Program-made: the position numbers and the translations under genes
The notes under the pieces: model-generated
Seen by the model: only the letters and a program-made list of their open reading frames with translations
What the model was told of the DNA's origin: nothing
The model's database searches: none
Assembly: GCA_019912395.1 (NCBI GenBank)
Contig: JAIOIH010000049.1
Coordinates: 62,001 to 126,000, forward strand
Origin: Flavobacteriales bacterium
GTDB taxonomy: Bacteria; Bacteroidota; Bacteroidia; Flavobacteriales_F; PHOS-HE28
Length of the DNA: 64,000 bases
Reading direction: 5' to 3'
In this document: positions 51,194 through 54,637 of the stretch, one piece after another
How the letters are laid out: each line of letters begins with the position of its first letter
Position numbering within the stretch: the stretch's first letter is position 1

Positions 51194-51961
51194 ATGTATA
51201 TTGATACCCACGCCCACCTCTATCACAAGCAGTTTGAACAGGACCGTACCGAAATGGTGCAGCGCGCACTGGATGCCGGTGTCCTCAAGCTCTTCCTTCC
51301 CAATATCGACCTCACCAGTGTGGAAGCCCTGCATGCCCTCTGCGACCAGTTCCCGGAGGTTTGTTTCCCCATGATGGGGCTGCATCCCTGCTCCGTGGGC
51401 GAAGATCCCAGCCGCGATCTGGGCGAGGTGGAACGCCTCTTGGGCACCGGCCGCTATTGGGCCGTGGGTGAGGTCGGCATCGACCTGCACTGGGACAAGA
51501 CCTGGCTCAGCCAGCAGCAGGATGCCTTTCGGCAACAAGTGCGCTGGGCCAAGGAGCTGGCATTGCCCGTGGTGATCCACTGCCGCGAAAGCTTCGAGGA
51601 GACCATTTCCATCATCGAGGAAGAGAAGGACGAGCACCTCACCGGTATCTTTCATTGCTTCACCGGTTCCGTTGAGGAGGCCCGGCGCATCATTGATCTT
51701 GGGGATTTCATGCTCGGTATCGGGGGCGTGATCACCTACCCCAAGGGCGGCCTCGCGGAGACCATGGCCGAAGTGGGCGCCGCGCATTGCGTGCTGGAGA
51801 CCGATGCGCCCTACCTCACTCCCGTGCCGTTCCGCGGCAAACGGAACGAGAGCAGTTACATCCCTTTGATCGCGGAAGCATTGGCCACCGCCGTGGGGCT
51901 TCCGGTAGAGGAAGTAGCCCGCATCACCACCGCCAACGCCGAGCTGCTCTTCGCCGAATGA
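51194..51961 (+). CDS. TatD-family metal-dependent hydrolase
   Basis: 255 residues. Metal ligands and motifs of TatD DNases are present: DTHAHLYH at residues 4-11, GEVGIDLHWDKTW, VIHCRESFEETI, GIFHCFTGSVEEA and ETDAPYLTPVPFRGKRNESSYIPLIAE. Members have 3'-5' exonuclease activity on DNA or RNA. The stop overlaps the ansA start (ATGA). Confidence 0.93.
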   Translation: MYIDTHAHLYHKQFEQDRTEMVQRALDAGVLKLFLPNIDLTSVEALHALCDQFPEVCFPMMGLHPCSVGEDPSRDLGEVERLLGTGRYWAVGEVGIDLHWDKTWLSQQQDAFRQQVRWAKELALPVVIHCRESFEETISIIEEEKDEHLTGIFHCFTGSVEEARRIIDLGDFMLGIGGVITYPKGGLAETMAEVGAAHCVLETDAPYLTPVPFRGKRNESSYIPLIAEALATAVGLPVEEVARITTANAELLFAE

Positions 51962-52986
51962 GCATGCCCAAGGTCTTGCTGATCTATACTGGCGGTACCA
52001 TCGGCATGGTCGCCGACCCGCGCAGCGGCACGCTCCAAGCCATGGACCTGGACCACTTGGAGGAACAGGTGCCGGAGCTTGTGCGAATGGGCATCACCTT
52101 GGAAACGGTCTCCTTTGGCACCCCCATTGACAGTAGCGACATGCGACCGGACCAGTGGGTACGCATCGCGCGCACCATCGGCCAGCGCTATGCGGAATTC
52201 GACGGCTTCGTGGTGTTGCACGGCAGCGACACCATGGCGTACACGGCCAGCGCATTGAGCTTCCTGCTGGAGAACCTGGCAAAGCCCGTGATCCTTACCG
52301 GGAGCCAATTACCGTTGGGCACCATCCGAACGGACGGCAAGGAGAACCTGCTCACGGCCATCGAGATCGCCGCAGCCAAGGAGAATGGCAAACCGATCGT
52401 GGCCGAAGTGGCGATCTATTTCGAGTACAGCCTCTATCGTGGTAACCGCACGGTGAAGGTGCATGCGGAGCGTTTCGAGGCGTTCCGTTCGCCCAACTGG
52501 CCCGTGCTGGCCGAGGCCGGCGTCCACATCCGCTACGATCGGACCGCGTTGCTTCCCATGCGCACCGCTCAGCTCCGGGTGCATGCGCACATGGACGATC
52601 GCGTGGGCGTGATCCGATTGTTCCCCGGCATCCGGGCATCCTGGGTTCAGGCGTTGTTGAACACGCCCGAACTGAATGCTGCTGTGATCACCACGTTCGG
52701 AAGCGGCAATGGCCCCACCGATGAAGAGTTCCTGCATGTGCTTCGCGAAGCGCGCAAGCGCGGCATCGTGCTGGTGAACATCACCCAATGTGTTGGAGGC
52801 CGCGTGGAGCAGGGCCGATACCAGACCAGCCAGGCCTTTGCGGAAATGGGCGTGGTAAGCGGGCACGACATGACCACGGAGGCGGCGATCACGAAGCTGA
52901 TGTTCCTGTTCGGGCAGGGCCTGGGCACTGAAGACGTGATGCGACGCATGGACGAGGAGCTTTCCGGGGAGATGCAAAAGCAGTGA
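51958..52986 (+). CDS. Type I L-asparaginase
   Basis: 342 residues from ATG 51958 overlapping the tatD stop; the earlier open frame is inside tatD. The two catalytic threonine motifs are TGGTIGMVADPRSG near the N-terminus and VVLHGSDTMAYTASALSFLLENLAKPVILTGSQLPLG. It converts asparagine to aspartate and ammonia. The tatD-ansA pair is likely co-transcribed. The tRNA-Ser gene begins 50 bases after its stop. Confidence 0.92.
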   Translation: MSMPKVLLIYTGGTIGMVADPRSGTLQAMDLDHLEEQVPELVRMGITLETVSFGTPIDSSDMRPDQWVRIARTIGQRYAEFDGFVVLHGSDTMAYTASALSFLLENLAKPVILTGSQLPLGTIRTDGKENLLTAIEIAAAKENGKPIVAEVAIYFEYSLYRGNRTVKVHAERFEAFRSPNWPVLAEAGVHIRYDRTALLPMRTAQLRVHAHMDDRVGVIRLFPGIRASWVQALLNTPELNAAVITTFGSGNGPTDEEFLHVLREARKRGIVLVNITQCVGGRVEQGRYQTSQAFAEMGVVSGHDMTTEAAITKLMFLFGQGLGTEDVMRRMDEELSGEMQKQ

Positions 52987-53000
52987 GGCCGGTCAATTGT

Positions 53001-53008
53001 TACATTCG
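53001..53008 (+). promoter_or_regulatory. -7 element upstream of tRNA-Ser
   Basis: TACATTCG fits TAnnTTCG and ends 28 bases before the tRNA. No good -33 is seen. Confidence 0.35.
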
Positions 53009-53036
53009 CGGCCCGTATTCCCGGATACGGAGTAAT

Positions 53037-53124
53037 GGAGAAGTGGCCGAGTGGTTTAAGGCGCACGCCTGGAAAGTGTGTTTACTGAAAGGTAACGGGG
53101 GTTCGAATCCCTCCTTCTCCGCCA
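53037..53124 (+). tRNA. tRNA-Ser, anticodon GGA
   Basis: The acceptor stem is GGAGAAG (53037-53043) with CTTCTCC (53114-53120), discriminator G and an encoded CCA at 53122-53124. The D arm is GCC...GGC, the anticodon stem CACGC/GTGTG with loop CTGGAAA, so the anticodon GGA is 53071-53073 and reads TCC/TCT serine codons. A long variable arm (GTTTACTGAAAGGTAAC) marks a class II tRNA, as expected for serine. The T stem (53097-53101 with 53109-53113) holds TTCGAAT. Confidence 0.95.
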
Positions 53125-53144
53125 ACGCTGCCCGTGCAGCGGGC

Positions 53145-53204
53145 GGTCCCAAGCAAAAAGTTGGTGCGGAGCTTGCTCCAAGCACCAACTTATTGCTTGG
53201 GACC
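53145..53204. repeat. Large hairpin downstream of tRNA-Ser
   Basis: The 23-base arms 53145-53167 (GGTCCCAAGCAAAAAGTTGG...) and 53182-53204 pair with a single mismatch, and inside them GGAGC/GCTCC (53168-53172, 53175-53179) forms a further stem round a TT loop. It would make one long structured RNA if transcribed with the tRNA. Confidence 0.85.
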
Positions 53205-53405
53205 AAAGGCCGCGCAGCGGCCGCAGCGTTGAAGCCACCCCCTCCGGGAACGCGCGCCTCGCGCAATCCCTCCTTCTCCCTCTCGCTCACCCTTACGGCT
53301 GCGGAGCTTGCTCCAAGCACCAACTTTTTGCTTGGGACCAAAGGCCGCGCAGCGGCCGCAGCGTTGAAGCCACCCCCTCCGGGAATGCGCGCCTCGCGCA
53401 ATCCC
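53166..53405. repeat. Two 105-bp direct repeats, period 135 bp
   Basis: 53166-53270 and 53301-53405 match at all but two positions. Each begins GCGGAGCTTGCTCCAAGCAC, includes GGCCGCGCAGCGGCC (a short palindrome), and ends with a hairpin GGGAAxGCGCGCCTCGCGCAATCCC-type sequence. A 30-base spacer separates them. Confidence 0.9.
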
Positions 53406-53423
53406 TTTTCCCTTTTCCCTTTT
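53403..53423. repeat. Short tandem repeat CCCTTTT x3
   Basis: Three perfect tandem copies of the heptamer CCCTTTT directly after the second 105-bp repeat. Confidence 0.9.
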
Positions 53424-53489
53424 CTGGACCACGCTTGCTTGGAGAAGCGGCGTTCGTCTTGCCTGCGGGACCCGCGTAGCAGGTCGCCG

Positions 53490-53541
53490 ATCGAAGCCCC
53501 CCCTTCCGGGAAAGCGCGCTTCGCGCGATCCCTCCTTCTCC
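53490..53541. repeat. Third, degenerate repeat copy ending in tRNA 3' sequence
   Basis: The section GAAGCC...TTCCGGGAAAGCGCGC...TCGCGCGATCCC follows the 3' half of the 105-bp repeats with several changes, and ends ATCCCTCCTTCTCC (53528-53541), the same as the tRNA 3' end at 53107-53120. Confidence 0.75.
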
Positions 53542-53650
53542 CAACCTTTCCCGCACTTCAGTCTTATCGCTGAAATTTCTCCTCTGTACTGCGGAAGATC
53601 GCCTTTCACGCCAACCCCCACCATTTCCGTAAATTCGCGGCCCTGTTCAC

Positions 53651-54637
53651 ATGCCCCGCATCGGTCCCATAGAACTCCCGGAATTCCCGTTGCTCCTCGC
53701 TCCCATGGAGGACGTGAGCGATCCGCCGTTCCGTGCGCTCTGCAAAAAGCACGGCGCGGACCTGATGTACACGGAGTTCATCAGTAGCGAGGCGTTGATC
53801 CGGCAAGCGGCCAAGGGCTTGAAGAAACTGGATATCTTCCCGGAGGAACGACCGGTGGGCATCCAGCTTTTCGGCGGTAGTGAGGATGCCATGGAGGAGG
53901 CTGCCCGAATCGCGGAACAAGCCGGACCGGAATTGATCGACATCAACTACGGTTGCCCGGTGAACAAGGTAGTGAACAAGGGCGCGGGTGCCTGCTTGCT
54001 GCAGGACGTGGACAAGATGGTGCGCCTCACCGAAAAGGTGGTGAAGGCCGTGAAGCTGCCCGTGACGGTGAAGACGCGCCTTGGCTGGAACGATCACACC
54101 AAGAACATCATGGAGGTGGCCGAGAGGTTGCAGGATATCGGTATCCAAGCGCTAAGCATCCATGGCCGCACACGTGCCCAACTTTACCGGGGTCCGGCGG
54201 ACTGGACCTTGATCGGAGAGGTGAAGAACAACCCGCGCATCCACATCCCCATCTTCGGCAACGGCGACATCGACAGTCCGGAGAAGGCGCTGGAATACAG
54301 GAACCGCTATGGCGTGGACGGCCTGATGATCGGTCGTGCCAGTATCGGACAACCGTGGATCTTCAACCAGATCAAACACTACTTCGCAACGGGAGAACAC
54401 TTGGCACCACCTACCCTGAACGACCGCGTGGACGCCGCGCGGGAGCACTTCGAGCGCAGCCTCCTCTGGAAAGGCGAGCACGAGGGCGTGGTGGAAATGC
54501 GGCGGCACTATTCCAACTACTTCAGGGGCATGCCCCATTTCAAGGAACACCGCATGAAGCTGGTGACTGAGCGGGACCCGCGGATCGTGCTGGAGCTGCT
54601 GGAAGCCGTGCGGGAGCTGCGCGCATTGGCGGCTTAA
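53651..54637 (+). CDS. dusB: tRNA-dihydrouridine synthase B
   Basis: 328 residues. A TIM-barrel flavoenzyme with LLLAPMEDVSDPPFRALCKKHGADLMYTEF, the catalytic cysteine in DINYGCPVNKVVNKGAGACLL, VTVKTRLGWNDHTKNIMEVA, IHGRTRAQLYRGPADWTLIGEVK and GDIDSPEKALEY, then GLMIGRASIGQPWIFNQIKHYF. It reduces uridine in the tRNA D loop. Length and motif order match DusB. Sits after the tRNA-Ser repeat array. Confidence 0.94.
   Translation: MPRIGPIELPEFPLLLAPMEDVSDPPFRALCKKHGADLMYTEFISSEALIRQAAKGLKKLDIFPEERPVGIQLFGGSEDAMEEAARIAEQAGPELIDINYGCPVNKVVNKGAGACLLQDVDKMVRLTEKVVKAVKLPVTVKTRLGWNDHTKNIMEVAERLQDIGIQALSIHGRTRAQLYRGPADWTLIGEVKNNPRIHIPIFGNGDIDSPEKALEYRNRYGVDGLMIGRASIGQPWIFNQIKHYFATGEHLAPPTLNDRVDAAREHFERSLLWKGEHEGVVEMRRHYSNYFRGMPHFKEHRMKLVTERDPRIVLELLEAVRELRALAA

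Follow-up and report, generated by a model that had tools for sequence, protein, structure and literature searches.

A repeat array behind tRNA-Ser(GGA) in a Flavobacteriales genome: a candidate Bacteroidia form of the rtT-type tRNA-tail repeat

The tRNA-Ser(GGA) gene in the window (the whole stretch of 64,000 nucleotides that was analysed) is followed by an array of one full and two partial units, in which the last ~15-19 nt of the tRNA are copied after each strongly folded body. The explanation that we favour, with somewhat better than even confidence, is that this array is a Bacteroidia form of the rtT-type tRNA-tail repeat array, a form absent from Rfam, and that it gives rise to a read-through trailer RNA of unproven function. 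Until now rtT repeats have been an oddity of E. coli and its relatives, with no agreed function. Arrays of a similar kind stand behind serine tRNA genes across many phyla of bacteria, the window version being one that Rfam lacks. If the tail boundary, the match of each tail to its own tRNA and the strand-specific fold do recur across Bacteroidia and other phyla, then the question of function becomes a comparative one; and, given such recurrence, the function of tRNA-tail repeats could be tested in many culturable bacteria.

The neighbours of the array – an asparaginase gene and a tRNA-dihydrouridine synthase (dus) gene, both recognised by Pfam – are separated by ~600 nt. Its parts are as follows.

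53037-53124, + strand: tRNA-Ser(GGA) gene, CCA encoded; the repeated tail is its 3' end (A58-A59-T60, the 3' strand of the T-stem, the 3' strand of the acceptor, and G73)
53125-53264, + strand: body of unit 1, the full unit
53125-53131, + strand: left side of P0, ACGCTGC, a closing stem with 53223-53229
53130-53144, + strand: hairpin H1, GCCCG-TGCAG-CGGGC, without a U-tract at the tRNA-Ser(GGA) locus
53145-53204, + strand: long hairpin H2, with 23-nt arms (53145-53167 and 53182-53204) and the inner stem GGAG-CUUG-CUCC
53208-53222, + strand: hairpin H3, GGCCGC-GCA-GCGGCC, with a GNA triloop
53223-53229, + strand: right side of P0, GCAGCGT
53230-53236, + strand: conserved linker TGAAGCC
53246-53270, + strand: pseudo-T-arm GGGA...TCCC, with a GC hairpin (GCGCGCCTCGCGC) in place of the T-loop
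53265-53279, + strand: tail 1, AATCCCTCCTTCTCC, identical to the 3' end of the tRNA
53300-53412, + strand: unit 2, partial, starting from the H2 loop; right arm at 53317-53339, degenerate tail AATCCCTTTTCCC from 53400
53427-53541, + strand: unit 3, partial, of another body type (the GCCGATCGAAGCC type), ending in tail 3
53527-53541, + strand: tail 3, GATCCCTCCTTCTCC, with one change relative to AATCCCTCCTTCTCC

That the 3' end of the tRNA is used again downstream, as the initial annotation reported, is borne out: the sequence at 53106-53120 returns unaltered in tail 1 and with its single change in tail 3, where simple arithmetic leads one to expect ~6e-7 chance occurrences of an exact 15-mer within 600 nt. 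The two long direct repeats described earlier extend over 107 nt (53165-53271 and 53300-53406, 98%), and a third, weaker copy that had been missed lies at 53427-53533 (61%). The near-perfect 23-bp hairpin is likewise present, the arms of H2 forming an inverted repeat of 96% whose right arm recurs in unit 2 at 100%, and the tRNA-like tails do end hairpin units, three in all when the degenerate one is counted. Both partial units begin at or near the loop of the long hairpin (53300, 53427). The earlier statement that the array has no ORF stands only in part, given that reading frames of 133-196 aa cross it; the three of these that were tested have no Pfam match, and on this ground a coding function was rejected. 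Such arrays carry a warning for annotation, for they give long spurious frames and can mimic integration scars. A genomic island at the tRNA was also set aside: the three tested array frames show no Pfam match to the integrase or foreign genes that would define one, and the same neighbours are present in relatives.

Arrays stand behind all four tRNA-Ser genes of the host genome (GGA, TGA, CGA and GCT), each with its own tail, and the same genome has arrays with their own tails behind tRNA-Lys(TTT) (100-nt period), tRNA-Leu(GAG) (96-nt period) and tRNA-His. Overall, a tail copy was found downstream of 8 of the 42 host tRNAs and upstream of one of the 42; one of the eight downstream cases, that of Val, falls within a cluster of duplicated tRNA-Val copies. 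With the tails of other tRNAs as a control, matches occurred in 42 of 1632 comparisons. At locus L085, a cluster of partial tRNA-Val copies occupies positions 1348-1702, and the tRNA-Leu(CAG) that ARAGORN calls in it resembles a tRNA-Val copy. Differently built tail arrays, each with the tail of its own tRNA, were seen behind tRNA-Lys, -His, -Leu(GAG), -Glu and -Pro(GGG), at loci L088, L097 and L115 of the host genome, L161 and L164 of G004, and L177 of G010.

Across the genus, arrays recur at orthologous tRNA-Ser genes, the number of units varies, and some sites are empty, with a tRNA-to-gene distance of 44-67 nt at empty sites versus 187-529 nt where units or remnants are present. The array is dispensable, a point against the reading that we favour: it is absent at the same site in some members of the genus, as it is in some E. 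coli strains. In part of the genus, tRNA-Ser(GGA) and its array are inverted relative to asparaginase and dus (window 51961-54637; L031-L059). A covariance model of the body (R1), which matches the body of unit 1 at 120 bits (G000:C18:115125-115236), is positive in seven of eight genus genomes and negative in G010. A tRNA scan of 21 body-model loci found tRNA-Ser adjoining 20 of them, a count that covers body hits of >= 60 bits in the eight genus genomes and has outside it four hits of 28-39 bits (G019:C73:41470-41572, G019:C6:122927-123009, G022:C1:357940-358046 and G031:C158:12417-12518). At L341 (G031:C236) the body unit sits on a short contig on which no tRNA was found; its tRNA may have lain beyond the end of the contig. 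Because hits of the body model and of BLAST keep to tRNA-Ser, a free mobile element was rejected as the main reading.

The initial annotation had leaned toward an element that targets tRNA ends, and had proposed to look for copies beside further tRNA genes and for empty sites. Both exist, and to that extent the proposal stands; the evidence nonetheless favours a transcribed tail or in-situ duplication over a free element, because hits stay at tRNA-Ser, tails are local, hairpins change in a compensatory manner, loops are strand-specific, and E. coli RtT is annotated as a processed transcript. Bodies at the same locus are alike across species (93.7% between the cga loci of G004 and G032), and vertical inheritance of the arrays together with the tRNA is the best reading.

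The pattern extends well beyond the genus. A search pattern with two tRNA-Ser tails at a spacing of 136-166 nt matched 17 of 395 Bacteroidia genomes, from about eleven families besides that of the host, while the reversed pattern, used as a control, matched none of the 395. The Bacteroidia bodies are mutually unrelated in sequence; their layout is the same in most. In most of the other loci H1 is a strong intrinsic terminator between tRNA and body, with H2 pairing with its U-tract, and since this terminator precedes the body, the body may rarely be transcribed there. A scan of GTDB representatives yielded at least 80 loci, and in 72 of the 80 listed the second tail lies outside any full tRNA gene, although a few of these 72 (L231 and L252, for example) are partial tRNA copies and not folded units. 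Tandem full tRNA genes were considered as the cause of the GTDB matches and account for only 8 of the 80 listed. The titles of the matches include Gammaproteobacteria, Desulfuromonas, Verrucomicrobia, Spirochaetes, Chlorobium, Nitrospirae and candidate phyla; many of these are metagenome-assembled genomes, for which single taxon assignments may be wrong. Among the matches listed many bodies are rtT-like, the body class having been assigned for part of the 72 loci, and loci of Marinobacter, Wenzhouxiangella and Alteromonas score 40-44 bits with the RtT model (cut-off 45). Culturable strains with arrays include Sphingobacterium micropteri (L269), Marinobacter similis (L211) and Alteromonas sediminis (L242). 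By our reading of motif counts, a conserved GGGATTCGAACCC-like stretch in the bodies of loci from other phyla is the reverse complement of a T-arm. Rfam returned no family in the window or in twelve Bacteroidia loci beyond tRNA and sub-threshold matches; one of its candidates, Flavo-1 RNA, was discarded, its single sub-threshold match lying in L194 outside the array. Our literature search, which returned an RtT paper (PMC4986893) and papers on casposons and trailers and did not return the older RtT papers, found the Bacteroidia arrays nowhere described.

The tail follows the local tRNA. At position 66, a variable base that the search pattern left free in both tRNA and tail, the tail agrees with its own tRNA in all 20 class loci and in 71 of the 72 GTDB loci listed (shuffled mean 30.6, maximum 46). 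Genome G085 is instructive: its two tRNA-Ser loci have bodies that are 94.9% identical, with T in both tRNA and tail at one and A in both at the other, so the loci have shared a body, yet each has the tail of its own tRNA. The arrays are demonstrably anchored to tRNA 3' ends.

A match between tail and tRNA fits target duplication and also other mechanisms, and the main rival to our reading builds upon the former. A non-autonomous element would insert at tRNA-Ser 3' ends through a staggered cut reaching from the T-loop to the tRNA 3' end, the tail being a casposon-like target-site duplication of 15-19 bp and repeated insertion producing the array. We regard this as unlikely, though it has real attractions: filled and empty sites occur between the same genes, the length and position of the tail are constant, the two G085 loci are much as it would predict, and a casposase is known to duplicate 14-15 bp of its target at the 3' end of tRNA-Pro (PMC6614799). 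Yet in the eight genus genomes no checked hit of >= 60 bits, L341 excepted, lies away from tRNA-Ser; the two ends of the unit body do not form an inverted repeat, P0 closing ~35-45 nt ahead of the tail; bodies at the same locus remain similar across species, changing by compensation; and a strand-specific fold is unexpected for the end of a duplex transposon. Moreover, Cas1, present in G000, G004, G032 and G085 (the host genome, G000, has two Cas1 genes, at G000:C68:44673 and C87:80197), is missing from array-bearing G028, G022 and G039, which removes the casposon route for these three.

Integrase sites in tRNA genes typically have identity blocks of 15-19 nt. The tails equal these blocks, and could in principle serve as decoys, offering tRNA-targeting integrases a place to attach other than the tRNA gene. 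No integrated element lies between the tails in the loci read, however, and the decoy idea, which leaves the structured bodies unexplained, seems to us highly improbable.

A further issue is the form in which the unit acts. Folded as RNA, 53037-53560 gives z = -5.6, with none of 100 shuffles equally good; for unit 1 alone, the + strand gives z = -7.0 when folded as RNA and z = -8.0 when folded as DNA. Among 19 bodies from the genus both sides have changed in 22 of the 27 pairs of H2, compensatory cells number 137 against 42 when shuffled, and sliding the partner by one base reduces paired cells from 95% to ~35%; as the structure derives from the same sequences the paired-cell share is biased upward, and more weight belongs to the compensatory counts. 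Within these alignments, then, H2 pairing is shown to be kept through compensatory change. The loops are markedly asymmetric with respect to strand: array units contain 87 GNA triloops versus 3 of the reverse complement (TNC), 14 CUUG loops versus 1 and 19 GNRA loops versus 5, counts taken from similarity-thinned sets in which related units remain and which are not fully independent. Array-free tRNA trailers, the control, have 6 GNA versus 4 and favour GNRA and UNCG loops. Full units from Bacteroidia show an excess of G-T over A-C mismatches (46 versus 25, p = 0.017), a test that we consider weak because the ratio is 14:10 for bodies from outside the Bacteroidota and no more than 18:11 for the tRNA positive control. 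Duplex palindromes should lack such loop asymmetry, which points to function in the single strand of tRNA sense; the unit would therefore act as a folded sense strand, be it RNA or single-stranded DNA. GNA triloops are best known from DNA, where they form mini-hairpins of exceptional stability (PMC4686876). This makes single-stranded DNA a live alternative to RNA and, together with the preference of control trailers for GNRA and UNCG, means that it may be the functional form.

The same asymmetry bears on the idea that the arrays are a passive by-product. Palindromes behind tRNAs would provoke template switching or slippage in replication, thereby copying the tRNA 3' end, and quasi-palindrome correction would keep the palindromes near-perfect without any function. 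The partial units, which start at the hairpin loop, speak for it, as does the number of units, which differs from species to species and, in the case of RtT, ranges from 0 to 4 among E. coli strains; quasi-palindrome correction could, moreover, mimic covariation. But symmetric correction does not predict GNA loops at 87:3, CUUG loops at 14:1 or an excess of G-T, and the same architecture and tail boundary recur across phyla. We judge a by-product quite unlikely. Doubtful, too, is a broader proposal: that one general tRNA-anchored repeat, gene-free, self-propagating and confined to tRNA 3' ends, exists in many phyla, with E. coli rtT as a branch. Its body would fold as tRNA-sense single-stranded DNA, with GNA mini-hairpins, and the tail would be duplicated as the body is copied into the tRNA 3' end.

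We return to the rtT-type array as the preferred reading, and to how it might arise and operate. The unit consists of a folded non-coding body (P0, a terminator-derived H1, H2 and H3), the linker GAAGCC, the pseudo-T-arm, in which a hairpin replaces the T-loop, and the tail, which copies the 3' end of the host tRNA from A58 onward. Arrays would arise and grow in situ, through tandem duplications in which the 3' end of the tRNA takes part, and would afterwards be inherited together with the tRNA; in-situ duplication combined with vertical inheritance is the best reading in that it fits most of the facts. No intrinsic terminator was detected between tRNA-Ser(GGA) and tail 1, and for this reason we propose that RNA polymerase reads past the tRNA at this locus, giving a long 3' trailer. 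The array is probably read-through trailer RNA that is processed as tRNA 3' trailers are: the enzymes of tRNA 3' maturation would cut at the tails, liberating structured RNAs ~110-160 nt long, the kind of processing annotated for the rtT RNA of E. coli, and these may serve as small RNAs or as decoys for tRNA-binding factors.

Several known systems share features with the array. Like REP/BIME elements, it is made of short non-coding palindromes with strand-specific folds; unlike them it is tied to tRNA 3' ends, carries tRNA sequence and is undispersed, the BLAST hits and the checked body-model hits in the genus genomes including no copies between unrelated genes. With casposons and other tRNA-targeting integrating elements it shares direct repeats built of the tRNA 3' end, but its units contain no genes, their ends lack terminal inverted repeats, and Cas1 is lacking from the three array-bearing genomes named above. 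Closer in kind are tRNA 3' external transcribed spacers such as 3'ETS-leuZ, a tRNA 3' trailer that acts as an sRNA sponge (PMC8166272). Here too the product would be a non-coding tRNA-trailer RNA and possible regulator, as we propose for the array, although these spacers are single, short and without tRNA-tail repeats.

The nearest parallel is RtT RNA, encoded by the 178-bp repeats of E. coli tyrT-tyrV (RF00391). RtT RNAs are reported to be released during tRNA processing and to be tied to the stringent response (PMC4986893); the RefSeq note on E. coli reads 'rtT sRNA, processed from tyrT transcript'. The number of units at tyrT-tyrV ranges from 0 to 4 between strains (E. coli genomes, hits H1-H12), strain DETEC-S566 having none at its tandem tRNA-Tyr genes. 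The differences are clear. The body in the window has a palindromic P0-H1-H2-H3 fold, unlike the GATGAGAACC..GGTTCGAC type of RtT, and, read by eye, contains neither the GATGAGAACC...GGTTCGAC motif nor the CCCGAAGGG hairpin; and whereas RtT is found on tRNA-Tyr, the arrays here are on tRNA-Ser (and Lys, His and Leu), with many loci per genome. The RtT covariance model has no match in the window up to E = 1 and exceeds its gathering cut-off (45 bits) in none of 58 relatives, the E. coli control scoring positive, and because of this failure we keep the array out of the RtT family. The likenesses are nonetheless extensive: in both, tandem units lie directly behind a tRNA, the tail that closes each unit reproduces the 3' end of the tRNA exactly, from A58 (in E. 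coli tyrV exact tails begin there too, at +162, +340 and +518), hairpins replace the T-loop of a pseudo-T-stem, GNA loops are present and copy number varies. We accordingly file the array in the window as one that would work like the rtT repeats while standing outside the RtT family.
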